Source: Tropicibacter oceani (GTDB lineage: Bacteria > Pseudomonadota > Alphaproteobacteria > Rhodobacterales > Rhodobacteraceae). Taken from it: a DNA stretch of 64,000 nucleotides. The DNA is taken from NCBI RefSeq assembly GCF_029958925.1, contig NZ_CP124616.1:3348001-3412000 (forward strand). The letters run 5' to 3'. The stretch's first letter is position 1; each line of letters starts with the position of its first letter. Below, piece by piece: positions 30,913 to 44,629 of the stretch. The position numbers and the translations under genes are program-made. The notes beneath the pieces are model-generated. The model ran no database searches. It was not told where the DNA came from and saw only the letters and a list, made by a program, of their open reading frames with translations.

Positions 30913-31911
30913 ATGACCCTTCGCCTTGCCGCTGCCTGCCTGTTCTTCGCCCTGCCCGCCCACGCCGAGGTGCCCCGCGTCGTCACCGACATCGCGCCCG
31001 TGCACAGCCTTGTTTCCATGGTGATGGAGGGTGTCGGCGCGCCAGAGCTGTTGCTGCCGCCCGGCACATCGGCGCATCATTTCGCGCTCAAACCCAGCCA
31101 GGCGCGCGCGCTGGCCGAGGCGGAGCTGATGGTCTGGATCGGCCCGGCGCTGACGCCCGCGCTTGGCGAAAGCATGGCCAACCTGGCCCCACAGGCCGCG
31201 CAACTGGTGCTGGCCGAGGCCCCGGGAACGCTGACCCTGCCCTATCGCGACCTGGACGAGATCGGTCAGTCCGAACAGGCCGACGGGCATGACGACCACG
31301 CGGATCACGATGACCACGAAGCGCACGATGACCATGAAAAACACGAAGAACACGAAGACCATGCCGAGGCGGACCCCCACGAAGGCCATGACCACGCGCA
31401 CGGCGGCACCGACCCGCACCTTTGGCTGACGCCGGTCAATGCCCGGCTTTGGCTGACCACGATTTCCCAGGCGTTGGCGTCGCAGGACCCGGACAATGCC
31501 CTGACCTACCAGCAAAACGCCGCAGCCGCCCAGGCCCGCGTCGACGCGGCCGAGGCCGAGGCCCGGCAAAGCCTGCGCGCCCTTGAAAACGCCCGCTTCG
31601 CCGTGTTTCACGATGCCTTTCAGTACTACGAACAGGCCTTTGGCCTGACCGTCATCGGCGCGATTTCCGACAGCGAGGCCGCCGCCGCCGGTCCGGCCCA
31701 GCTGGATGCCCTGCGCGATCACCTTGCCGAACAACGGCCCGCCTGCATCCTGACCGAACCGGGTGCCAACCTGAAACTGGTTCAGGCCGTCGCGCCCGAT
31801 CTGCCGATGGTCGAACTGGACCCGATGGGATCGACCTTGCCGTTGGGCTCCGGGCTTTACCCGGCGCTGTTGCAGGACATCGCGGCGCGCCTTGGCGGCT
31901 GCGCCCCCTAG
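30913..31911 (+). CDS. znuA: Zinc ABC transporter substrate-binding protein
   Basis: A 332-residue periplasmic zinc-binding protein with a signal peptide (1-19, ending AHA). A long His/Asp/Glu loop (about 118-165) separates the two lobes and precedes the conserved DPHLWLTP. Zinc ligands are expected at the His of TSAHHFALKPS, at DPHLW, at the VFHDAFQYY His and at a late acidic residue. The loop is unusually rich in HDDH repeats, as in high-affinity zinc proteins. The ATG at 30913 is preferred over a GTG at 30904. The stop overlaps that of pxpA on the other strand. Confidence 0.94.
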   Translation: MTLRLAAACLFFALPAHAEVPRVVTDIAPVHSLVSMVMEGVGAPELLLPPGTSAHHFALKPSQARALAEAELMVWIGPALTPALGESMANLAPQAAQLVLAEAPGTLTLPYRDLDEIGQSEQADGHDDHADHDDHEAHDDHEKHEEHEDHAEADPHEGHDHAHGGTDPHLWLTPVNARLWLTTISQALASQDPDNALTYQQNAAAAQARVDAAEAEARQSLRALENARFAVFHDAFQYYEQAFGLTVIGAISDSEAAAAGPAQLDALRDHLAEQRPACILTEPGANLKLVQAVAPDLPMVELDPMGSTLPLGSGLYPALLQDIAARLGGCAP

Positions 31912-32696
31912 GCCAGCGCCCCGCGCCGCCCTTCAAAGGCGCGCACCGCGATGCCTGCCGTCTCCAGCCCGCCGCGCACGGCCCTTGCGATCTGCAGGGC
32001 CGTGGCCCCGTCGCCGTGCAGGCAGATGGTGTCGACCGCCGCCGGGATCGGCGCGCCGGATTCCGGCAGGATCGCCCCGGCCTGCACCATTTTCACAATC
32101 CTTTCAGCGGCATAGCCCGCATCATGGATCACCGCACCGGGCAGGCTGCGATCAACCAGCGTCGCATCGGCGTTATAGGCCCGGTCGGCAAATATCTCTC
32201 CGGCCCATAGGCAATCCAACCCTTCGACCGCGCGCTGCTGCGCGGTGGCGGCCAGAACCATGACGATGATCTCGGGCGCGATTTCCAATGCGGCGCCGTA
32301 ACAGGCGCGCGCCATGCCCTCATCTTCGGCCGCCATATTGGCCAGCGCGCCGTGCAGTTTCAGGTGCCGCACCTGTGCGCCCTGCGCCCGCGCCATGGCC
32401 AGCGCAGCCCCCAGCTGGTATTGCACCATGTTGCGCAAGGACGCCTCGGGCAGATGCATCCTGCGCCGCCCGAACCCCTGCAGATCGGCAAAGCCCGGAT
32501 GCGCCCCGATCCCGACGCCGCGCGCATGGGCGGTGGCCATGGTCTGCGCCATCACGTCCGGATCGCCCGCGTGAAAGCCGCAGGCGATATTGGCCGAACT
32601 CACCACCTCCAGCAGCGCCGCGTCCTGCCCCATGACCCAAGGGCCAAAGCTTTCGCCCATATCGGCGTTCAGATCGACGGATGTGACCGTGCTCAT
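31908..32696 (-). CDS. pxpA: 5-oxoprolinase subunit PxpA (LamB/YcsF family)
   Basis: A 262-residue LamB/YcsF protein, one of three subunits of the ATP-dependent prokaryotic 5-oxoprolinase that opens pyroglutamate to glutamate. Landmarks are VDLNADMGESFG at the start, ANIACGFHAGDP, GAHPGFADLQGFGRR, LKLHGALAN and DTICLHGDG near the end. It is the last gene after pxpB and pxpC, each overlapping by 4 bp. The stop codons of pxpA and znuA overlap. Confidence 0.93.
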   Translation of the reverse strand: MSTVTSVDLNADMGESFGPWVMGQDAALLEVVSSANIACGFHAGDPDVMAQTMATAHARGVGIGAHPGFADLQGFGRRRMHLPEASLRNMVQYQLGAALAMARAQGAQVRHLKLHGALANMAAEDEGMARACYGAALEIAPEIIVMVLAATAQQRAVEGLDCLWAGEIFADRAYNADATLVDRSLPGAVIHDAGYAAERIVKMVQAGAILPESGAPIPAAVDTICLHGDGATALQIARAVRGGLETAGIAVRAFEGRRGALA

Positions 32697-33703
32697 GGCT
32701 CTTCCTTTCCGGTGATGGCCCCGCTGATCAGGGTATAGGACAACAGGTCCGCGATCTGCGCCGGGTCGCGGTACATCGGTGCCGCCAACCCCGGCAAGGC
32801 CTTGAGATGCTTGACAAAAGCCGCCTGCGCGGTCAGCGCCTCGTCGCGGGTGACAAAGCGGAAGTGGATGTCCGACCCGGCGGGCGCCTGCGCGATGCGC
32901 GGCAGATCGGCGGGAATGACCGTGCCGATGCGCGGATAGCCCCCCGTGGTCTGACATTCCGACAACAGCACATAGGGCGCGCCATCGCCGGGGATCTGGA
33001 TATCGCCGGGGGTGATCACCTCGGACAGTATGGTCTGCCCCGCCTGCAGGCCAAAGCCTTCGCCCTCGGGCGCCAGGCGCACACCCATCCGGTTGCCGCG
33101 CGCATCGCGGGTGAACCGCGTCGCGGCAAAGCGGTCCCGGTCCTCGACAGGGTATAGCCCGGTTTGCAGGCTGGGCAGGATGCGCAACTCGCCGCCGCTC
33201 CAGCGCGGCTCGGGGGTCAGGATCAGGCCGGTCGCGTCACCGGTCTCGTCCCCCAGCGGCAGGCTTTGGCCCACCGTCACCGGCGCGCCCAGCCCCGCCG
33301 CCAGATGGGCGCTTTGCGCGCCCAGGATATGCGGAAGGACCAGCCCGCCACCGAAACTCAGATAGCCATAGACCCCGGCCTTGGCTCCGCCAATCTCCAG
33401 CACCGCGCCGGGCGGGACCAGGTGCGAGGCCTGCCAGGCCAGCGGCGCACCGTCCAGCGTTGCCTTCATCGGGGCACCGGTCAGGGCGATCCGGGTCGGG
33501 GCCGTCACCGTGAACCGCCCGCCCATTCCGGCCATTTCCAAAGCCGCGCCAATGGGTTGGCGCAGCAGCGCCGCGCCTTCGGCTAGCGCCAGCCGGTCCG
33601 CCGCCCCGCCCCGCGACAGCCCCTGCGACAGGTATCCGGGGCGGCCCATGTCCTGCACCGTCACCCCCGGCCCGATCTGCTGCACGATCACGGCGCGGGT
33701 CAT
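32693..33703 (-). CDS. pxpC: 5-oxoprolinase subunit PxpC (biotin-dependent carboxyltransferase-like, KipA)
   Basis: A 336-residue protein of the KipA/allophanate hydrolase subunit 2 family. The N-terminus (GPGVTVQDMGRPGYLSQGLSRGGAADR) is diagnostic, and TGGYPRIGTVIPADLPRIAQ is a conserved late motif. It works with PxpB as a carboxyltransferase-like pair to phosphorylate or activate 5-oxoproline before PxpA acts. It is coupled by 4-bp overlaps to both neighbours. Confidence 0.93.
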   Translation of the reverse strand: MTRAVIVQQIGPGVTVQDMGRPGYLSQGLSRGGAADRLALAEGAALLRQPIGAALEMAGMGGRFTVTAPTRIALTGAPMKATLDGAPLAWQASHLVPPGAVLEIGGAKAGVYGYLSFGGGLVLPHILGAQSAHLAAGLGAPVTVGQSLPLGDETGDATGLILTPEPRWSGGELRILPSLQTGLYPVEDRDRFAATRFTRDARGNRMGVRLAPEGEGFGLQAGQTILSEVITPGDIQIPGDGAPYVLLSECQTTGGYPRIGTVIPADLPRIAQAPAGSDIHFRFVTRDEALTAQAAFVKHLKALPGLAAPMYRDPAQIADLLSYTLISGAITGKEEP

Positions 33704-34449
33704 GGCAGCGGCCTTTGCGTCAGCCCGCCCATGGGGTCGCCGCGCAGCGTCTCGAACACCTCGCGCGAGACGGCGGGAAACTGCACCTCGTCCCCGGGGC
33801 GCAACAAAAAGGGCGTGTCGCTGTCTGGCTGGAACAGGCGTACGGCGGTCTGCCCCACATGCCGCCAGCCGGTCGGCGTGGTGACCGAAAACAGCACCAG
33901 TTGCCGGATCGCCACCACCAGCGCCCCAACCGGCACCTGCGGCGTCAGGGCCGTCTGGCGCGGGATGTTCCAGGCCTCGGGCAAGGTGCCCAGATAAGGC
34001 TGGCCGGGGGCAAAGCCAATGGCCGTGACCCTGACTCGCGCTTGGGACATAGACGCAATCGCGGCTTCGACGCTCATCCCGGCCAGCTGCGCGGCCTCGT
34101 CCAGTTGCGGCGCCAGATCGGTGCCGTAAACCGTTGGAATCGATAGAAACCTACGCCCCTCGGGCAGGGCGGCCTGATACCAGTCGCGCGTTGCCAGCAG
34201 CGCGCTCAGCCGCTGCGACAGGGCCTCGGGCGCGACGGCCAGCGGATCGAACCGCAAGAAACACGACACCAGCGAGGTCGCGCATTCCTCGACCCCTTCG
34301 GGGCTGTCCCCCTCCAGCGCCGCCTTGAAGGCCAGTGCCGCGCGATTGGCAGGCTCGTCCAGAACCTCGCCAAAACGCACCAAAAGCCCGTCCAGCCCGA
34401 CAGGGTCGATGCGGGGGAAATCAGGGGTTTGCATTGGGGTGTCGCTCAT
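33700..34449 (-). CDS. pxpB: 5-oxoprolinase subunit PxpB (KipI family)
   Basis: A 249-residue KipI/allophanate hydrolase subunit 1 protein. Diagnostic parts are IPTVYGTDLAPQLDEAA, IGFAPGQPYLGTLPE, the IPR-containing strand, TPTGWRHVGQTAVRLF and LRPGDEVQFPAVS. It forms a complex with PxpC. The ATG at 34449 is chosen; an ATG five codons further in is possible. A 65-bp gap separates it from the aminotransferase gene, long enough for its own promoter, although none is clear. Confidence 0.92.
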   Translation of the reverse strand: MSDTPMQTPDFPRIDPVGLDGLLVRFGEVLDEPANRAALAFKAALEGDSPEGVEECATSLVSCFLRFDPLAVAPEALSQRLSALLATRDWYQAALPEGRRFLSIPTVYGTDLAPQLDEAAQLAGMSVEAAIASMSQARVRVTAIGFAPGQPYLGTLPEAWNIPRQTALTPQVPVGALVVAIRQLVLFSVTTPTGWRHVGQTAVRLFQPDSDTPFLLRPGDEVQFPAVSREVFETLRGDPMGGLTQRPLP

Positions 34450-34514
34450 TCGGGCATGAAGCCACGGCGCGCGGGCACTGTCCAGAGGCCCCGCGCGCCG
34501 ATGCCAGACAGGGC

Positions 34515-35771
34515 CTACCCCGCCTGCGCCGCGATCTCCTTGGCCGCCGCCAGAAACGCGCGCACCTCGTCCAGCGAGTTGTAATGCGCCAGCGACACGC
34601 GGATGCAATCGGGCTGCCCAAGCGGAGCAAGGATATTGCCCGAATAGTGATCGGCCTTGCGCATATGCGTGCGGATGCCCGCCGCGTTCAGCGCCGCGAC
34701 CACCTCGCCCGACGGGCGCCCGTCGATCCAGAAACTGACCAGCCCTTCGCGCGCCGAATTGTCCGCCCCGGCGACGATGCGAACCCCCGGCAGTTCCGCC
34801 AGCCCGGTCAGGTTGCCGATCCCGGTCAGCATGGCCTTGGTCAGGGCCGCCTCGTGAGCATGGATCGCCGCGCCTGCCGCCTCGATCCGTGCGCGGCGGT
34901 CGGTGGCGTCCGACACCTGCGCGCCCAGCCAGTCGAAATAGCCCACCACGTCGGACATGGTGGCATAGGCCCCGGTGTCGCGCGTGCCAAGTTCCCAATT
35001 GCCGTCCGGCCCGCCGACCAGCGCGTCATGCGCCAGCATGGTCAACCGGTCCGAGGCCCAGGCCACACCATAGCCATGGCGCGAAAACACCTTGTAGGGC
35101 GAGACGACATAGCCGTCGATCACCGCGTCGCTCAGATCAATGCGCCCGTGGCAGGCGTGCTGGATGCCGTCGACGATGATGTAACAGTCGGGCGACACCG
35201 CGCGGATCGCCCGCGCGATTCCCGCCACGTCATTGCCCATGCCGGTGACAGGCGAGGTGTGCAGGATCGTCGCCACCCGCGTGTCAGGCGTGACCACCTC
35301 GGCATAGGCCTGCGGGCTTACTGTCCCGGCCTCGTCATCATGCGGCACCAGAACATGCGGGCGTTTCGTCATCGCCGCCCAGCGCGCGCAGGCACTGCGC
35401 GAGGCCGGATGCTCGACCGTCGAGCTGACCACAACCCCGCCCTTTTCAGCGCCAAGGCAGGCATCCTGCACCAGCCGGAACAGCAGTTCCGTGCCGCTTT
35501 CGCCCCACAGCACCGCGCCGCCGGGCGCGTTGAACAAAACCTTCACATCCTCGCGCGCCTGGTTGATCACCTTGACCAGCGCCTGCGAGGCCGGGTTGTC
35601 GCGCCCCTGGTTGTCAGGAATACCGGCAAAGCGTGTCGTGGTGTCCACCACCGAATTCAACGTCAAAGCCCCGCCCGCGTTCTCGAAAAAGATGCGCGGC
35701 CCGGTGAACGGGCAGGTTTCGACATGGGCAAAACGGGCGCGGATCTGCGCCAACAGGTCGTCAGAAAACAT
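34515..35771 (-). CDS. Class V aminotransferase (cysteine desulfurase-like)
   Basis: A 418-residue PLP enzyme of the aminotransferase class V fold. The N-terminal IFFENAGGALT, the substrate loop STVEHPASRSACARWA, the PLP-binding DGIQHACHGRIDLSD and the Schiff-base Lys in GYVVSPYKVFSRHG are clear. It could be an isopenicillin-epimerase-like or selenocysteine-lyase-like protein; the mobile Cys of SufS-type desulfurases is not obvious, so sulfur transfer is uncertain. The start codon overlaps the yacG stop, so it belongs to the maf-RNase E/G-yacG transcript. Confidence 0.85.
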   Translation of the reverse strand: MFSDDLLAQIRARFAHVETCPFTGPRIFFENAGGALTLNSVVDTTTRFAGIPDNQGRDNPASQALVKVINQAREDVKVLFNAPGGAVLWGESGTELLFRLVQDACLGAEKGGVVVSSTVEHPASRSACARWAAMTKRPHVLVPHDDEAGTVSPQAYAEVVTPDTRVATILHTSPVTGMGNDVAGIARAIRAVSPDCYIIVDGIQHACHGRIDLSDAVIDGYVVSPYKVFSRHGYGVAWASDRLTMLAHDALVGGPDGNWELGTRDTGAYATMSDVVGYFDWLGAQVSDATDRRARIEAAGAAIHAHEAALTKAMLTGIGNLTGLAELPGVRIVAGADNSAREGLVSFWIDGRPSGEVVAALNAAGIRTHMRKADHYSGNILAPLGQPDCIRVSLAHYNSLDEVRAFLAAAKEIAAQAG

Positions 35772-35965
35772 CAGTGCGGCTTTCGTTGTTGATCGTCCAA
35801 TGCGCGAAGGGTCTCTTCGGCGGCCTTTTCCATATCCTCGGGGTCGTTCGAGGGGATCGCATAGGTGCCCCCCAGCCATTTCGCCAGATCCACATCGGCG
35901 CAGCGTTTCGAACAAAAGGGGCGGTATTTCGGATCGGTGTCCTTTGAGCAGATCGGACAGCTCAT
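35771..35965 (-). CDS. yacG: Zinc-binding protein YacG (DNA gyrase inhibitor family)
   Basis: A 64-residue zinc-finger protein. CPIC (3-6) and CSKRC (18-22) provide four Cys ligands, and RPFCSKRCADVDLAKWL is typical of YacG, which binds GyrB in E. coli and inhibits gyrase. The acidic C-terminal tail is usual. It overlaps RNase E/G by 4 bp upstream and the aminotransferase start downstream. Confidence 0.92.
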   Translation of the reverse strand: MSCPICSKDTDPKYRPFCSKRCADVDLAKWLGGTYAIPSNDPEDMEKAAEETLRALDDQQRKPH

Positions 35966-36996
35966 TTCAGCAGCTCCTTCAGCGGCTGGCGGTCACGTTT
36001 GCGCTGAATTTCCATCAGGCCCAGCGTGGTCCAACCAGCCAGAACCGACTCGGTCGCCTCGCGTTTCAGCCCGGCGCGCAGCATCCCCTCCAGCTGTTTG
36101 CGGTCCTTCTTGGGGCATGGCGCCGGATCGACGATGATCTGGCCGCCAAGCCCGCGCAGGCGCAACTGGCGCGGCAGATCGCGCATCGCCGCCAGATTGG
36201 CCTTGAGCCCCGCGGCAGGCGAAGTATCGCCGCCGGTGTTCACATCGACCGCCACCAGCGCGCTGGTCGGCTCGATGATCATCGTATAGCCGCCCGGCAG
36301 GGCGACGCGCGGGCGGCGCAAGTCGTCGATCATCTCGTCCACGCCTTGCCGTTCGAAACTGCCCGCCTCGGCGTCGATCTGCGCCTCTTCGCTCCATTCG
36401 CGCCAGGCCAGCGCGTGCGGGCCGTCGCCTTCGACCAGCACTTCGGCGTCAAAGCCTTCGTCGCCCAGCACATGCGCGGCCAGACGCGCCATGGTGGCCA
36501 CGTCCTCGGCGATCTCGCCCTGCCCGGCCGCCGCGCAGGACGACCGCAGGATCAGCCCCGCCTCTTCGGGCAGCGGCGCATCGGCCAGCGCCTCGTGCGC
36601 GGCCTCAAGCGCGGCGTCGCGCAGATCGTCGTCCTTGATCTGGCGCGACACATTGATGCCCGGCTTGCCGGCGGTCACGATGGCATAGCGCGACTTGAAC
36701 AGCAGGCTGGAGGTGACCGGGATCGCCTTGCCTTCCTCGGCAAAGCTGGTGACCTGCACCAGCATGGCCTGCCCCGGTTTCAGCCCCTTGACCTGACGCA
36801 GAAAGGCCGTGCCATCGGGGGTGCGCAGGAACATCCCGCCCTGCCCCTTGACCGGGCGTTCGGCGATGGCGCGATAGATCGTGCCGGGGCGCGGTGCATC
36901 GCTGTCGATCAGCAGATCGTCCAGCTTGCCATCGCGGATCAGCGCCGCCGCCTCGCGGGGGCCAAGATGATCCAGCGCTACAGTCAAACCCTTCAT
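35962..36996 (-). CDS. Short ribonuclease E/G family protein
   Basis: A 344-residue RNase E/G-like endoribonuclease without the N-terminal S1 domain plan of full RNase E. The catalytic acidic motif [13 protein letters not shown] (near residue 250) is present. Other family segments are [22 protein letters not shown] (the family usually has RT in place of RS) and [14 protein letters not shown]. Being less than half the size of RNase E, it is a second, compact paralogue that in related bacteria lies between maf and yacG. It should process or degrade RNA; targets are unknown. Overlaps of 4 bp on both sides put it in one operon. Confidence 0.88.
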
Positions 36997-37583
36997 GTCT
37001 TTTCCTTATACACCGGATAGCCCGCGGCGATCAGCAGATTGGCGGTTTCGGCCAGCGGCAGGCCCACAACAGCGGTGAACGAGCCGTTGATCCACGGGAT
37101 GAACGCCCCCGCCATGCCCTGAATACCATAACCGCCCGCCTTGCCCTGCCAATCCCCGCTGGCAAGATAGGCGTTCAGTTCCTCGTTCGAGATATTCTTC
37201 ATCTTGACCTGCGTGACCACGTCGCGTTCCCACAGCCTGTCACCCCGGCGCACGGCCACGGCGGTAATCACCCGGTGCCGCCGCCCCGACAGCTTGGTCA
37301 GGAATTCCGCCGCCTCGCCCGCATCGCGCGGCTTGCCCAGAATGCGGCGCCCCAGCGCCACGGTGGTGTCGGCGGACAGCACGATTTCATCCGCCGTTGC
37401 GGGGATCGCCTGCGCCTTTTCGCGCGCCAGCCGCACGCAATAGGGGCGCGGCAACTCTCCTGCCTTGGGGTCTTCGTCGATGTCCGGATGGCGGATGTCA
37501 TGCGGCGCCAGCCCCAGCTGCGCCAGCAGCTCGCGGCGGCGGGGGCTGCCAGAGCCCAGAATCAAATGGGGGGTGTCGGTCAT
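36993..37583 (-). CDS. maf: Maf-like nucleotide pyrophosphatase
   Basis: A 196-residue Maf/YceF-type house-cleaning enzyme hydrolysing non-canonical or modified nucleoside triphosphates (dTTP/UTP type by family). The family's substrate motif [12 protein letters not shown] (8-19), the acidic catalytic region [13 protein letters not shown] and [18 protein letters not shown] are all present. It is the first gene of the maf to pxp string on this strand and divergent from the reductive dehalogenase gene, with a 108-bp shared upstream region. Confidence 0.93.
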
Positions 37584-37691
37584 GGCGGTCCCTTGTCTTG
37601 CGCGACTGCCCATAACCCTTTGCCGCCCCAAGGGCAAACGCCGCTTGCCCCCCGCCGCCAGCGCGGTAGTCTGCCGCGCAGGAGGACCCCC

Positions 37692-40600
37692 ATGGCATTG
37701 CGTATCTTTTCGGACCGGAAACGGCCCGTTCACCTTGGCCCCTACCCGTTGGAGCGGTTGCAGCCTGGCCCGATGCCCGACCTTGCCGCCCTGCCCGCAT
37801 GGCAACCGCTGGATTTCCAGCGCGCCGCGCCTGAAAGCCTGGTCAACGCCATGGCCGATCATCAGGCCATGATGGACGCGATCCGCGACGGGCTGGTGAA
37901 CCGGGCGCAATCCGCCATTCCCGATGATCCGCAAGAGCGCGCCAACCACCTCAAGGCCTTCGGCTATTTCTCCGACGCCTCGATGGTCGGCTGCGCCCGA
38001 CTGCCCGCCCCGGCCCGCCTGCAATCACCAGTGATCAACCCCGGCATAGCGGCGCTGGCCGAGGCGCTGAAGACCCGCCAGACCAAGACGCTGGCCGCCG
38101 GGATCGACATGATCATGGCCGACCTCAAGGAATCGATGCAGGCCCCGCCCGCCTCGATCGACGGCCATACCCATGTGCTGGTCTTTGCCTATGAATACCC
38201 GCGCGATCCGCGCGAAGGTGAACCGGGGTTTGACTGGATCAAGGGCGCACAGGCCGAACGCGCCTGCCTGCGCGCCTCGGAAACCGCCACCGTCATCGCC
38301 AATTACATCCGCCTTCTGGGCCGGGACGCCAAGGCGCACACCGGCACCACCTCGGACCTTGACCTGACGCGGCTGGCCGTCGCCTCGGGGATCGCCTTTC
38401 CCGACGGCTCTGCGCCCTGGCTGGGGCGGCGCTATGGGCTGGCGGCGGTATCGACCACGCTGGAGATCGCGCCCGACACCCCGCTTGCCCCGCAAGACCA
38501 GCAACCCGCCAGCGAACTGTCCGGCCTGCACTGGCAGCTTGGCACCCGCTCGGCCAAATCCGCGCGCACCCAGGACCCCTTTGCCAAACGCGACTTTGCC
38601 GCCAGTCCCCACCCGTTCGAAACCCTGAAACGCGTGGACAGCCCCACCACCTATATAGATGAGCCCAACGTCGCCCGCGTGCCCAAACGCGCCGACATGT
38701 TCGCCCGCGCCCAGTTCGGCGACATGGGCAAGCCCCTGCAACAGGCGGCGACAGGCGGGTATTACGTTCGCAAGGCCGCGCCCTCGGGCGCGCAGCGCCG
38801 CCTGCTGGGGGCCTTTGTGCTGCTTCAGGACGGCGCGCCCGCAGCGCAGCCCCGGCCAACGGACCCGCACTCAGATGCCGAGGCGATCAAGGCCGCCAGC
38901 TACTTTCTGGGCATCGACGCCGTGGGGATATCGCGCTGCCCCGACTGGGCATGGTACAGCCACGATGCGGCGGGCGAGCCGATCCACCCGACCCACACCA
39001 ACGCCATCAGCATGATCGTCGACCAGGGGTTCGAGACGATGGAGGGTGCAAGCGGCGACGACTGGATCAGCGTCGCGCAATCCATGCGCGCCTACCTGCG
39101 GTTTTCCCTGCTGGGCGGGGTGATCGCCGCGCAGATCCGCCGCCTAGGCTATAGCGCCAAGGCGCACTCGGTGATGGACGGCGAGGTGCTGCAACCGCCG
39201 CTGTTGCTGCTGTCCGGCCTTGGCGAAGTCAGCCGCATCGGCGAAGTGATCCTCAACCCCTTCCTCGGGCCGCGCCTGAAATCCGGCGTTGTCACCACCG
39301 ACATGCCGCTGGCCCACGACAGGCCGATCGACTTTGGCCTGCAGAAATTCTGTGAAAGCTGCAACAAATGCGCCCGCGAATGCCCCTCGGGGGCGATCAC
39401 CGCCGGGCCGAAACTGATGTTCAACGGCTATGAAATCTGGAAATCCGACAGCCAGAAATGCGCCACCTACCGCATCACCACGACCGGCGGTGCCATGTGC
39501 GGGCGCTGCATGAAAACCTGCCCGTGGAACCTCGAAGGGCTGTTCGCCGAGGCGCCCTTTCGCTGGGCCGCCATGAACATGCCCGGCGCGGCCCCCCTGC
39601 TGGCGAAACTGGACGATGCCGCCAACCGGGGCAGCCTGAACCCGGTCAAGAAATGGTGGTGGGATCTGGAGCTGCAACCGGACGGGGCCTACCGCCCCAC
39701 CGACAAACCGTTGAACGAACGCGGCCTGCAAAAGGACCTGGACCTCAAATACGAGGACCAGACCCTTGCCGTCTACCCCGCGCCCCTTGCCCCGCACCCC
39801 TGGCCCTATCCCTTTGCCATGGACCGCGAGGCCGGGATCGAGGCCTATCAGGCCATGGTCACCGCGCAGGAATACCAGCGCCGCCGCGATGCGGGCGACG
39901 CTTCGGTCCTGCACCGCTACAACGCCGCCGAGCAAAGCCCGGTCCTGCGGGTGCAGATCACCATGGCCGAGGACATGGCCCCCGGCCTGACCAAATACGA
40001 ATTCAGCAGCCTTGACGGCAGCCCGCTGCCGGAATGGACCGCAGGCGCCCATATCGACATCGTCGTGGCCCCGGAGTACCTGCGCCAGTATTCCATGTCC
40101 GGCGACCCGGCCAACCGCACCACCTACCAGATCGCCGTCCTGCGCGAAGACGCGGGGCGCGGCGGATCGAAACTGCTGCACCGGATTTTCAGCGAGGGGC
40201 GCAAGGTCTTCATCTCGAAGCCGATCAACCATTTCCCCTTGGTCGAGGACGCGGTGCACAGCTATCTGATGGCGGGCGGGATCGGTGTGACGCCAATGAT
40301 CGCCATGGCCCATCGCCTGCACGCACTCGGGCAGCCCTTCAGCCTGCATTATTCCGTGAAATCAAAAGCCTCTGCCGGTTTCCTCAACGAATTGTTCAGC
40401 TTTCCATGGGCCGACAAGGTGAGCCTGCATATCTCGGACGAAGGCACGCGCTGCGATCTGGCGCAAACCCTGCGCTATCGCCCCGGCGCGCATGTCTATA
40501 CCTGCGGCCCCGAGGTTTACATGAACGCGGTTCTCGATGCGGCCGAGGCTGCGGGTTTCCCCGACGAGGCCCGGCATTTCGAATTCTTCTCGGTGCCAGA

Positions 40601-40883
40601 GCTGCCGGAATACGTTAACCATCCGTTCACCCTTCGCCTGAAGGACGGGCGCGAAATCCCTGTTTCAAAAGAAGAAACCGGGACAGACGCCCTTGCCCGC
40701 GCGGGCGTGCACGTGGATGTGAAATGCAGCGACGGGATTTGCGGCGTCTGCCAATGCGGGCTGATCTCGGGCGAGGTCGAGCACCGCGACTTTGTCATGT
40801 CCAAGGCGCAAAGACAAAGCCGCGTGATCCTGTGCCAAAGCCGCGCGGCACAGCCCGGCGGCGTGATCGAAATCGACCTTTGA
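37692..40883 (+). CDS. Self-sufficient reductive dehalogenase fused to flavin/2Fe-2S reductase
   Basis: A 1063-residue cytoplasmic reductive dehalogenase of the catabolic, respiration-independent type known from BhbA. The N-terminal part (about 1-540) is the cobamide-binding RdhA-like domain. Two [4Fe-4S] clusters follow: Cys554-x2-x2-x3-Cys ([12 protein letters not shown]), and a second set including Cys603 ([11 protein letters not shown]). From about residue 750 comes a phthalate-dioxygenase-reductase-like unit with flavin motif [13 protein letters not shown] motif [14 protein letters not shown], and a plant-type [2Fe-2S] domain starting at Cys1012 ([11 protein letters not shown]). No Tat signal is present, unlike respiratory RdhA. 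NAD(P)H should thus drive dehalogenation directly. A GGAGG site precedes the ATG. It is a stand-alone gene with no rdhB. Confidence 0.9.
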
Positions 40884-40919
40884 CCCCCAAACCGGGGGCC
40901 AAAATCCCGAACTGGATTT

Positions 40920-41399
40920 TTACTCCCCGTGCTCCGGCAGTTTGCCAGAGGGCGCAACATAGGGCCGGGTCACATCGCGCAACGACACTTCCAGCGCCTC
41001 GACCTCGGCCCGCAGCGCGCCGTCCCCCGCAAGGGTCAGAACCACGTGGCCCCCGGGCGCCTCACCCACCTCGAACGTCACGGACAGCACCGACAGGACC
41101 ACATCCGCGTCGCCGCGCGCGATGCCCTGGCTGGCAACCCCCAGGACGTTGTCGATCACCAACAGCGACTGCACCCGTTCAACCGGGCGGCCGCGCTTTT
41201 GCGCCGCCTCGACGTCTTCCCAGCGCAGCCGGTTCAGCAACAGCCCCAACCGGCGCAGGCCCGGTTGCCACTTGATTTCCGTCGCCGGAAACACCGCGTC
41301 CTGCACCAGCGCCGACAGCACGGCCAGATCCTGAGCGTCAAAGGCCCCAAGGTTCAGGGGGCGTTCGCCCCCGTCCTCAAATCGTGCATCCTCGCTCAT
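40920..41399 (-). CDS. DUF2948 family protein
   Basis: A 159-residue protein matching DUF2948, small proteins of alphaproteobacteria often next to murA. Visible features are [25 protein letters not shown] near the N-terminus and [14 protein letters not shown]. There is no membrane segment or catalytic motif. Its start codon overlaps the murA stop by 4 bp, so it is translated with murA. Role unknown. Between it and the dehalogenase gene lies a short A/T-stem hairpin (40901-40920) that might terminate either transcript. Confidence 0.82.
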
Positions 41400-42667
41400 T
41401 CGACTTTGACCCGCTCGATCTTGCCGCCCACGGCGGACAGCTTGCGCACCACATGCTCATAGCCGCGATCAAGGTGATAGACCCGGCTGACCACCGTTTC
41501 CCCGCGCGCCGCCAGCCCCGCAAGGATCAGCGAAACCGAGGCCCGCAGGTCCGTCGCCATGACCGGCGCGCCCTTGAGCTGATCGACACCCGTGACCTTG
41601 GCCGTACCGCCATGCACGTCGATCTTGGCCCCCATGCGGATCAGTTCCGGCGCATGCATGAACCGATTCTCGAAAATCTTCTCTTCCAGCTGGCTGGTGC
41701 CCTCGGCGGTGCACAGCAGCGCCATCATCTGCGCCTGCAGATCGGTCGGAAAGCCGGGATAAGGCTCGGTCGTCACATCGACGGCCCGCACGCGGTCGCC
41801 CTTGCGCGACACTTTCAGCCCCTTTTCGGTTTCCTCGACCGACACACCGGCCGCATCCAGCCGTTCGCAGAAGGATTCGACCAGGTTCATCTTGCCGCCA
41901 AGGCAGGTCACCTCGCCGCCGCAGATCGCCGGGGCCAGCATATAGGTGCCCAGTTCGATCCGGTCAGTCACCACGCGGTGCGTCGCGCCGCCCAGACGAT
42001 CGACGCCCTGAATGGTGATGGTGCTGGTGCCCTCGCCCTCGATCTGCGCGCCCATTGCCTGCAGGCAATGCGCCAGATCGACGATCTCGGGCTCGCGCGC
42101 GGCGTTTTTCAGAACCGTGGTGCCCTTGGCCAGGGTCGCGGCCATCAGCGCGTTTTCCGTCGCCCCGACCGAGACGAACGGGAATTCCACGACCGCGCCC
42201 TTGAGCCCGCCAGACGGGGCCTTGGCATGCACATAGCCATCGCGCAGCTCCAGATCCGCGCCCATCGCCTCGAACGCCTTGAGGTGCAGGTCGACCGGCC
42301 GCGCGCCGATGGCACAGCCGCCGGGCAGCGATACAACCGCCTGCCCCGCCCGCGCCAGCATCGGCCCCAGCACAAGGATCGAGGCGCGCATCTTGCGCAC
42401 GATGTCATAATCGGCGTGCAGGTTGTTCAGGTCGTGGCTGCTCATGGCCAGCACCTGCCCGCCCTGCAACCCCTGCACCTCGGCCCCCAGCGATTGCAGC
42501 AGGGCCGTCATCGTCTTGATGTCCGACAAGCGCGGCGCATTGGTCAGCGTCAGCGGCTCGTCCGACAGCAGGGTCGCCGGCATCAAGGTCAGACAGGCGT
42601 TCTTTGCGCCCGCGATGGGGATTTCCCCGTTCAGCGGGCCACCACCCGTCACCAAAATCGAATCCAT
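41396..42667 (-). CDS. murA: UDP-N-acetylglucosamine 1-carboxyvinyltransferase
   Basis: A 423-residue MurA, which transfers enolpyruvate from PEP to UDP-GlcNAc in the first committed step of peptidoglycan synthesis. The catalytic Cys is in [16 protein letters not shown] (fosfomycin target). Other motifs are the N-terminal [31 protein letters not shown] and the late [10 protein letters not shown]. Full length, no anomalies. It is followed by DUF2948 (4-bp overlap) and preceded 5 bp upstream by a small basic-protein gene. Confidence 0.96.
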
Positions 42668-42672
42668 GCCTG

Positions 42673-42834
42673 TCAGTCCTTGTTACCGCTGTTTTGTTCT
42701 GTGTCGCGCGCATCCTGCCCCTGACGCGCCTTGGCCTGCGCCTTGCGCCGTCCAAGATTCGCCTTCAGCGCCGCTTTCAGGCGCGCGTCCCGTGTCTTTT
42801 CGGGCGTTTTCGGGGGTGTTGCTTTGCGTTGCAT
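42673..42834 (-). CDS. Small basic protein, hypothetical
   Basis: A 53-residue Lys/Arg/Ala-rich protein ([22 protein letters not shown]) with no membrane helix, predicted helical. The ATG at 42834 is chosen; an in-frame upstream Met at 42858 would add only eight residues. It ends 5 bp before murA on the same strand and probably shares its transcript. I do not know a functional name; size and charge suggest RNA or ribosome association. Short basic frames arise easily in GC-rich DNA, so confidence is moderate. Confidence 0.55.
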
Positions 42835-42877
42835 GAGGTCTCTGTAACCTACGTGCAAAAAAGGGTCCAGTTTACGC

Positions 42878-42906
42878 TTGCACCCGAAAAGTTTTGCGGC
42901 TAATCA
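42878..42906 (+). promoter_or_regulatory. Promoter of tRNA-Thr
   Basis: TTGCAC (42878-42883), 17-bp spacer, TAATCA (42901-42906), 23 bp before the tRNA. Confidence 0.55.
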
Positions 42907-42929
42907 CCCGGCACGTTTCGACGGACGGC

Positions 42930-43004
<75 letters not shown>

Positions 43005-43069
43005 TTTCCCAATCCCGGAAAATTTCAGGTGACAGCGCGGTTTGACGCTGCGGCGGCGCTTTTGAAGCG

Positions 43070-43310
43070 TTACATCAAGTTTGCGCTGCAACCCTGCGAC
43101 ATCACTTGCAAACCTGGCGGGGCGATCCCGGTCATCTCAGTTGGGCTGATGCTTGGCAGGTCAGGAAAGGGCGGCGCCTGCAGTGCACCAGCCTGAAAAT
43201 CGGAAAATTGTTGTTTTAGTGAAAGCGAGGCCCCATAAATTGCCAATCCTAATGTAATATTATCGCTATAGTGATATTCGATCCCCAAGATTCCAGCTTC
43301 CCAACCTGAT
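43070..43310 (-). pseudogene. Remnant of a beta-barrel-type gene beside tRNA-Thr
   Basis: The - strand encodes about 75 residues beginning WEAGILGIEYHYSDNITLGL and continuing through LAIYGASLSLKQQF. This alternating pattern resembles the end of an outer-membrane beta barrel. No start codon precedes the conserved part, a stop lies just upstream, and the DNA is much more AT-rich than the flanks. It appears to be a decayed foreign fragment. The rest of the 43005-43402 gap holds nothing else recognisable. Confidence 0.45.
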
Positions 43311-43402
43311 CAATGCCTCGCCCAATGCGCCCCCTGGCGGCTTGCCAAGCCCCCCGCGCAGGGCCTATGCCGCTGGTGAAGTCCTCCAAGGAGCCCTTGG
43401 CA

Positions 43403-44629
43403 GTGTTGATCTACCGGATATTGCTAAGCCTTTTCTCTCTGGCCGTGCTTCTGCGCCAGCCCGGCAAGGCGTTGCGCCGCGCCCGTCTGGGGCATGGCAT
43501 GGCCCCCGCGCCCGGCCAGCACGTCTGGCTGCATGGCGCATCAAACGGCGAGCTGGCCTCGGTTCGCACGGTGCTCGACCATCTTGTCGCCGCGCGCCCC
43601 GATCTGAAATGGCTGATCACGGCAAACACCCCGACGGCGGTGCAGATGGTCACGGACTGGGCCCTGCCCGGGGTCAGCGCCCGGCTTGCCCCGCTGGACC
43701 TGGCGCGGGTGACGGCCCGGGTGCTGCGCGACTGGCAGGTGGTGGCGCATGTCTCGCTCGAATCTGAGCTGTGGCCGCATCGTTTTCGCCTGTGCCCAGG
43801 TCCGGTGATTCTGCTGGGCGCAAGGATGAGCCAGGGCACCGCCCGTGGCCTGGGCCGCCTGCCCGGGCTGTCGCGCGCCATGCTGGAGCATGTGACCCTG
43901 GCCATTGCCCAGGATCAGGGCAGCCTTGACCGTCTGACGCAGCTGGGCCTGCCACAGGAGGCGCGCGGGCCGGTTGTCGATCTCAAGGCGCTGTATCTTG
44001 CGCCGCAGGGCCAGACGCCCGATGCCGCCTTGCTGGCCGCCTTTCCCCGCGCCCGCACCTGGCTGGCCGCCTCGACCCACGCGGGCGAGGACGAGATCGC
44101 GCTGGACGCCCATGCTCTGGCGCTGCGCCATGCCCCGGACCTGCGGCTGATCCTGGCCCCGCGCCATCCGCGCCGGGGCGACGCGCTCGAATCGCTGATC
44201 GCCGCACGCGGACTGACCTGCGCGCGGCGCAGCAAGGGTCAGGCGCCGGGCACCGCACAGGTCTACCTGGTCGATACCATGGGCGAAATGGCACTGTGGT
44301 ATGCGCTGGCGGGGCGCGTTCTGGTCGCCGGCACGCTCAGCGACCGGGGCGGGCATACTCCTTATGAGCCCGCCGCCTTTGGCGCCGCGCTGCTGCACGG
44401 GCCGGATGTGGTCAACCACAAGGCGGGGTTCGAGCGGCTGGCGCAGGCGCAGGCATCCGTGCAGATCAATGATGCGGCGTCGCTGGCCGATGCGCTGATC
44501 GCCCTGACCAGTCCCGAAGACCAGCAAAGAGCCGGCAAGGCCGCGCAGGCGGCGCTGGCGCAGGACATCGACCTTGACGGGCTGTGCGCGCGGCTGCTGG
44601 ACCGGTTGCCCGCGTCTGCGCAACCTTGA
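43403..44629 (+). CDS. waaA: 3-deoxy-D-manno-octulosonic acid transferase
   Basis: A 408-residue GT-B glycosyltransferase (GT30) that adds Kdo to lipid A at the inner membrane. The N-terminal helix LIYRILLSLFSLAVLL anchors it. The catalytic Glu is in HGASNGELAS, and SLESELWPHRF, AASTHAGEDE and DRGGHTPYEPAAFG are family motifs. I chose the GTG at 43403, placed ten bases after AAGGAG; an in-frame ATG at 43367 would add 12 unconserved residues and lacks a good ribosome site. Asn in place of the usual Val before GE is a minor oddity. Confidence 0.9.
   Translation: MLIYRILLSLFSLAVLLRQPGKALRRARLGHGMAPAPGQHVWLHGASNGELASVRTVLDHLVAARPDLKWLITANTPTAVQMVTDWALPGVSARLAPLDLARVTARVLRDWQVVAHVSLESELWPHRFRLCPGPVILLGARMSQGTARGLGRLPGLSRAMLEHVTLAIAQDQGSLDRLTQLGLPQEARGPVVDLKALYLAPQGQTPDAALLAAFPRARTWLAASTHAGEDEIALDAHALALRHAPDLRLILAPRHPRRGDALESLIAARGLTCARRSKGQAPGTAQVYLVDTMGEMALWYALAGRVLVAGTLSDRGGHTPYEPAAFGAALLHGPDVVNHKAGFERLAQAQASVQINDAASLADALIALTSPEDQQRAGKAAQAALAQDIDLDGLCARLLDRLPASAQP

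Follow-up and report, generated by a model that had tools for sequence, protein, structure and literature searches.

A predicted catabolic reductive dehalogenase fusion of the BhbA/JtRdhA type in Tropicibacter oceani, with its likely substrates and cofactor supply

A single gene of Tropicibacter oceani, rdhA, very likely encodes a catabolic reductive dehalogenase like BhbA and JtRdhA, cytoplasmic and self-sufficient, the likely substrates of which are ortho-brominated or ortho-iodinated phenols with a carboxylate side chain in the para position. It lies in a window of 64,000 nucleotides, the whole stretch of DNA analysed. The activity, the substrate, NADPH as the electron donor and the catabolic role are predictions. 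Taken alone, the enzyme is one more member of a family whose type enzymes have already been assayed. What is added is a testable substrate assignment, from the adjacency of rdhA and pobA in related loci and a 4-hydroxybenzoate cluster in the host genome, and a likely reliance on imported B12, which would link roseobacter-type bromophenol turnover to vitamin supply.

Domain architecture and catalytic residues

The rdhA frame has no internal stop codon between 37692 and 40883. A longer version of it in the list of open reading frames starts at 36894; the start was taken as 37692 because this fits both the ribosome-binding site and the starts of the homologous loci L001, L002 and L014. The features of the gene and its flanks are collected in Table 1.

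Table 1. Features of rdhA and its flanking genes (positions in the window)
Feature	Position	Strand	Basis
maf, divergent from rdhA; flanking, outside the system	36996..37577	-	PF02545
AGGAGG, likely ribosome-binding site	37680..37685	+	read directly; 6 bases before ATG
rdhA fusion ORF, 1063 aa; ATG 37692, stop 40881-40883	37692..40883	+	TIGR02486, NpRdhA and BhbA matches
Vestigial, duplicated RdhA-like domain, residues 75-266	37914..38489	+	hhalign
Cobamide-binding RdhA core, residues ~385-660	38844..39671	+	TIGR02486, NpRdhA alignment
Tyr468 (= NpRdhA Y426, proton donor)	39093..39095	+	identical in 51/51
Lys530 (= NpRdhA K488)	39279..39281	+	identical in 51/51
Two 4Fe-4S motifs (second C-X12-CGRCMKTCP), residues 554-613	39351..39530	+	Fer4_16; cysteines 51/51
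Arg594 (= NpRdhA R552)	39471..39473	+	identical in 51/51
Flavin- and NAD(P)-binding reductase module, phthalate dioxygenase reductase type, residues 747-967	39930..40592	+	2pia, structural model
C-terminal plant-type 2Fe-2S ferredoxin domain, residues 979-1063	40626..40880	+	Fer2 PF00111, 35.3 bits
DUF2948; flanking, outside the system	40920..41396	-	PF11164
murA, after DUF2948; flanking, outside the system	41396-42664		PF00275

The initial annotation had described a fusion of an RdhA core, two 4Fe-4S clusters, a reductase and a 2Fe-2S domain, and profile and structure matches bear this out. TIGR02486, the NCBIfam reductive dehalogenase model, matched residues 426-643 with 181.8 bits (cut-off 160.35). 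Among solved structures, phmmer matched NpRdhA (6zxu/4ras) at E ~1e-163, with residues 2-106 and residues 158-731 aligned separately, and the phthalate dioxygenase reductase 2pia at E 7.9e-52 over residues 748-1055. Fer4_16, Fer4_7, Fer4 and Fer2 scored above their Pfam cut-offs. NAD_binding_1 fell short of its cut-off (12.6 bits against 22), which leaves the flavin/NAD assignment to rest on 2pia and the relatives. The Pfam Dehalogenase model (PF13486) had no match in the window protein, nor in any of 14 control genomes. The vestigial domain was recognised when the alignment slice of residues 1-300 was compared with the core slice of residues 385-660 (hhalign probability 99.3, E 7.5e-21, 156 columns); such a duplication is reported as a mark that separates catabolic enzymes from others (PMC10463259).

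An AlphaFold model of the protein has a pLDDT of 71.3 and a pTM of 0.68, with much of residues 495-620 below 50. Over model residues 1-736 it aligns with NpRdhA (Foldseek E 7.3e-51; VIA-align Z 26.7, rmsd 4.0 over 590 residues). For the C-terminal end of the model the matches are 2pia, with Z 18.9 and rmsd 11.1 over 294 residues, and 6kbh, the reductase of a self-sufficient P450, with Z 19.8 and rmsd 8.8; at these rmsd values the reductase fold is supported and the placement of the domains is unreliable. The structural check that had been proposed thus recovered the NpRdhA fold, but the active-site geometry was not drawn from a model of middling quality that is weak around the clusters.

The active-site residues of NpRdhA, as named in PMC10463259 and PMC7565698 (F291, S422, M423, Y426, K488 and R552), were placed manually on the window protein through the phmmer alignment. 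The corresponding F337, S464, M465, Y468, K530 and R594 are the same in all 51 aligned fusions, so that the Tyr/Lys/Arg set anticipated around the halide is present. Twelve cluster cysteines are likewise identical in 51 of 51, eight of them belonging to the 4Fe-4S motifs. The alignment from which the two slices above were cut comprised 49 of the 80 fetched loci and the window.

BhbA of Comamonas sp. 7D-2 (plasmid pBHB, WP_015585978, locus L101) is 51.0% identical to the window protein, full-length and co-linear, and has the same catalytic and cluster residues. This identity, the vestigial duplication and the fused reductase uphold the earlier placement among the catabolic, self-sufficient BhbA-type enzymes. 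The bhbA locus differs in lying on a plasmid with ring-cleavage and transport genes. NpRdhA of Nitratireductor pacificus (4ras, 6zxu) resembles the RdhA part in fold and in its Y/K/R set, at 37-40% identity over that part, but has no fused reductase.

Relatives and the likely substrate

The genome collection contained 547 relative stretches, the best 80 of which, 68-80% identical, were kept. Among these best 80, 79 are approximately full-length (L076 is clipped by a contig start), and most record titles name Rhodobacteraceae or roseobacter genera, while some are Rhizobiales-type or of other kinds. Identity to the plasmid copies was 58% (Aminobacter) and 52% (Nitratireductor sp. OM-1). A search of 61 genomes found full-length fusions in 13 of the 37 from the host's family, its own included, and in none of the 24 others, some of which hold reductase-free or partial relatives. 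The full-length fusion type is common in the host's family, contrary to the rarity first ascribed to it, and putative bhbA homologues are described as widespread in the Roseobacter clade (PMC13101508). The window enzyme is a genuine but unremarkable representative of an established family; its kind had been described before, and it is not a rarity.

Gene neighbourhoods were counted over 81 loci, the window and the best 80 of the 547 relatives, with flanks of unequal length; because only these best 80 were kept, the counts are weighted towards close relatives. A FastTree of 51 fusions was built from 40 of the 80 loci, five of the eight plasmid records, five additional genome loci and the window, and an extended tree with five more loci brought the number to 56.

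Directly downstream of rdhA, on the same strand, pobA (4-hydroxybenzoate hydroxylase) was found in 5 of the 81 loci (L021, L059, L061, L063 and L076). These PobA homologues start within ~30 bp of the end of rdhA and are 56-69% identical to the PobA of the host genome; the gap is 9-16 bp in four loci, and in L021 the position is from tblastn alone. In L049 a PobA homologue lies 5.6 kb from rdhA. Four of the pairs (L059, L061, L063 and L076) fall in a six-member group (support 0.919) with L041 and L068, both of which have no PobA match, and L021 groups apart from them with L009 and L013. The two separate tree positions mean that rdhA and pobA came together, or stayed together, at least twice. 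A limited literature search, partly of incomplete texts, found no description of this adjacency, which is not claimed as unpublished.

In the window no pobA adjoins rdhA. The host genome, however, has a pobA-pcaH-pcaG-BKACE cluster at about 1336.7-1340.6 kb of contig C1, the same contig as rdhA, in which pobA scores 703.5 bits against a cut-off of 538.7. With this cluster in the genome, a debrominated 4-hydroxybenzoate would have a route. PobA and PcaHG need oxygen, and this need, with the record titles of the relatives, is the basis for presuming the host to be an aerobic marine bacterium. The initial annotation had remarked that no ring-cleavage genes adjoin rdhA; this holds at the window locus, but such a pathway lies elsewhere on the contig and pobA follows rdhA in the five loci above. 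Queries with PcaH, PcaG and two LigB proteins had no match near rdhA in any of the 81 loci. Among the plasmid copies, the fusion of Nitratireductor sp. OM-1 has two such genes within 5 kb, pobA and one for a class III extradiol dioxygenase, and in Comamonas 7D-2 the genes immediately upstream of bhbA include ligA and one for an extradiol dioxygenase. The Ruegeria TM1040, Jannaschia and Aminobacter plasmid copies have no annotated 4-hydroxybenzoate genes within 8 kb in gene tables that are incomplete. The rdhA-pobA adjacency, together with the host pobA cluster, points to bromo- or iodo-4-hydroxybenzoates as the presumed substrates.

JtRdhA of the marine Jhaorihella thermophila (WP_104007082) was purified and assayed, and debrominates and deiodinates with NADPH (PMC10463259). 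It was active on ten brominated or iodinated phenolics (Table 1 of that report), which makes the earlier statement that few such enzymes have known substrates partly out of date. From the compounds tested it removed bromine and iodine, not chlorine or fluorine, and in E. coli W it allowed growth on 3-bromo-4-hydroxyphenylacetate (PMC10463259). By its description there, JtRdhA shares with the window protein the duplicated RdhA domain, two 4Fe-4S clusters, a C-terminal PDOR-type reductase, the lack of a Tat signal and the active-site set. By analogy, the window enzyme probably removes bromine or iodine from phenol-like compounds.

In the proposed reaction, NAD(P)H would reduce the bound flavin, and a base-off cobamide would receive the electrons singly by way of the C-terminal 2Fe-2S domain and both 4Fe-4S clusters. 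The cobalt would be ligated by the halogen of the substrate, while the phenolate would be held by the Y468/K530/R594 set, which would donate a proton, and the halide would be released. The electron path, the halogen-cobalt ligation and the roles of Tyr, Lys and Arg are taken from knowledge of the family (PMC10463259, PMC7565698). The most likely natural substrates would be 3-bromo- and 3,5-dibromo-4-hydroxybenzoate, and the 4-hydroxybenzoate formed would enter the host's own PobA-PcaHG route.

An enzyme of the same class could instead act on another halophenol, such as bromo-4-hydroxyphenylacetate, phenols derived from halotyrosine or simple bromophenols from algae or worms, and serve detoxification or halide removal, not growth on 4-hydroxybenzoate. 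This is quite possible, if short of probable. JtRdhA works on 3-bromo-4-hydroxyphenylacetate at 99% and on 2-iodophenol at 72% of its best rate (PMC10463259), and being equally good on the phenylacetate counts against the 4-hydroxybenzoate assignment. PobA had no match in 75 of the 81 loci, where 3 kb flanks on both sides were available in only 56 of the 80 fetched. The second-shell pocket is also unlike that of BhbA: the window protein has M336, A353, Y358 and V461 where BhbA has F, S, S and S (positions 353 and 358 are placed in a loosely aligned stretch), so that substrate preference may differ. In NpRdhA the position of V461 is taken by A419, part of the lining of the second-bromine pocket (PMC7565698). 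Against another halophenol stand the rdhA-pobA pairs at two tree positions, and the rdhA proteins of these five pairs have the window residues at all 11 compared positions, except for A in place of V461 in L059. The bromo-4-hydroxybenzoate assignment is the one put forward.

The locus and its history

On one side rdhA is flanked by maf and an RNase E/G gene, and on the other by DUF2948 and murA. In four related loci (L001, L002, L007 and L014) it lies between DUF2948-murA and a row of UPF0262, LMW-phosphatase, maf and rng genes (names partly by eye), with hisD recognised between rdhA and the UPF0262/maf/rng row in L002 and L014. The window and these four form one clade with support 1.0 in the FastTree of 51 fusions, and in all five, the window included, rdhA is on the same side of DUF2948-murA. 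The UPF0262/hisD part is missing from the window site; the best hisD match lies ~42 kb off, at C1:3341944-3343161 (TIGR00069, 529.6 bits). The arrangement speaks for inheritance of rdhA at this site within the clade, after which a local rearrangement may have taken place. A recent horizontal gain of the window copy is unsupported within the clade, given the shared DUF2948-murA site and the single clade with support 1.0. An RNA-family search of 34000-44000 gave one match, a tRNA at 42930-43001, beside murA. The break of the rearrangement was probably near the rdhA start, around 37578-37691, and may have altered the promoter. A sigma-70 promoter scan of 37500-37760 found none where shuffled sequences led one to expect 0.0, so it says little.

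Such a break close upstream could fit a decaying or silent gene, or the protein could reduce something else, such as a non-halogenated substrate, and no assay of the window protein was found in the literature, some of it available in part. Both are improbable, since the frame is intact, every checked catalytic and cluster residue is kept, and rdhA holds the same side of DUF2948-murA in the five related loci. Moreover dN/dS (NG86), calculated against homologues of ~80% identity, is 0.10 with L001, 0.20 with L002 and 0.19 with L014; window rdhA is under purifying selection. On its sequence features, rdhA is read as a real gene and not a chance frame.

A respiratory, membrane-associated periplasmic reductive dehalogenase, which would share the TIGR02486 core, is rejected on architecture as next to impossible: the lack of a Tat signal and of rdhB in the initial annotation is borne out by an N-terminus that, read by eye, has no twin-arginine motif or hydrophobic stretch, and by named neighbours (Maf, RNase E/G, DUF2948 and MurA) none of which is rdhB-like, and the protein has a fused NAD(P)H reductase and a vestigial duplication as in catabolic enzymes.

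Ros_A3X954 of Roseobacter sp. MED193 is, like the predicted window enzyme, a Roseobacter-lineage debrominase that lacks a Tat signal, but it is a short RDase with cluster motifs at 283-345, and the available part of the report mentions no reductase module (PMC13101508). It was assayed with methyl viologen and reported to be oxygen-sensitive (PMC13101508). MED193 also has a separate fusion homologue, L015, 72% identical to the window protein. Ros_A3X954 was ruled out as an assayed close homologue, since motifs at 283-345 belong to an RDase shorter than L015.

Several other neighbours were recorded. A conserved gene of ~275 aa, LuxR-like by eye only, lies on the opposite strand less than 40 bp from the rdhA start in L003, L005, L010, L015, L017, L019 and L020, where it is a candidate regulator; matches to it occur in 10 of the 81 loci in all. 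MarR and LysR genes, which stand beside the Jannaschia and Aminobacter copies, were dropped as recurrent partners: two MarR queries matched near rdhA in 1 and 0 of the 81 loci, and LysR in 3. A pxpA/pxpC/pxpB-like set of the 5-oxoprolinase type lies 3-6 kb upstream of rdhA in the window (~31908-34413, minus strand); Pfam confirmed only the pxpB-like CT_C_D, and the other two were named by eye. Thirteen of the 81 loci have such a set no more than 10 kb from rdhA. It is upstream on the same strand in 11, where it is 175-235 bp from rdhA in L023, L044, L045 and L065 and separated by an intervening gene in the other seven; it is reversed in the window and L001. Its presence may reflect shared descent, and no mechanism was found for a functional link to rdhA. 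In L013, L051, L060, L067 and L075, rdhA is within 10 kb of the murA-hisD-maf-rng row in other positions, and this neighbourhood is possibly an insertion-prone area.

Cobamide supply

The host genome, listed as 100% complete in 4 contigs, has no match to CobN (PF02514) or to CbiC/CobH (PF02570), which matched 5 and 7 of 14 control genomes respectively. As no alphaproteobacterium was among the matching controls, CbiC was run over 37 related genomes and found in 15 (13 of 23 family members and 2 of 14 others). Among these 37, it is absent from the host and its one congener, and its presence in 15 makes the absence in the host likely real. Of three TP_methylase genes in the host, two are uroporphyrinogen-III methyltransferases and one is a 16S rRNA methyltransferase, which leaves none for CobI, CobJ, CobL or CobM. 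CobT, CobS and CbiJ/CobK are present; cbiJ/cobK lies at C1:3130156-3130836 of the host genome, with no evident cob neighbours.

A cobalamin riboswitch (137.1 bits) precedes genes for a TonB receptor, a periplasmic binding protein, FecCD and an ABC ATPase. Of the NCBIfam models, the one for the B12 receptor fits the TonB receptor best, at a score of 233.9 that is under the cut-off of 599.7, and the transporter set is likely to serve B12 uptake. A second cobalamin riboswitch (127.7 bits) is at C1:3250289-3250492, with no clear downstream gene found. The suggestion that cobalamin genes be sought thus had a divided outcome, negative for synthesis beyond the three genes present and positive for a likely uptake set. 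The best reading makes the host a corrin-ring auxotroph dependent on salvaged cobamides, one that would supply its own electrons but not its own cofactor.

We put forward only tentatively, as rather doubtful, the wider proposal that the aerobic debromination of bromo-4-hydroxybenzoates is chromosomally encoded and common among marine roseobacter-type bacteria, where it supplies the PobA-protocatechuate route, with about half of the carriers, the host included, using B12 from other microbes. If true, natural organobromine turnover would be tied to B12 cross-feeding. CbiC was found in 5 of the 10 fusion carriers that both the fusion search and the CbiC search covered (G002, G008, G014, G015 and G021), and the other five are G000, which is the host, G001, G006, G010 and G016; the missing corrin-ring gene is not general among fusion carriers.
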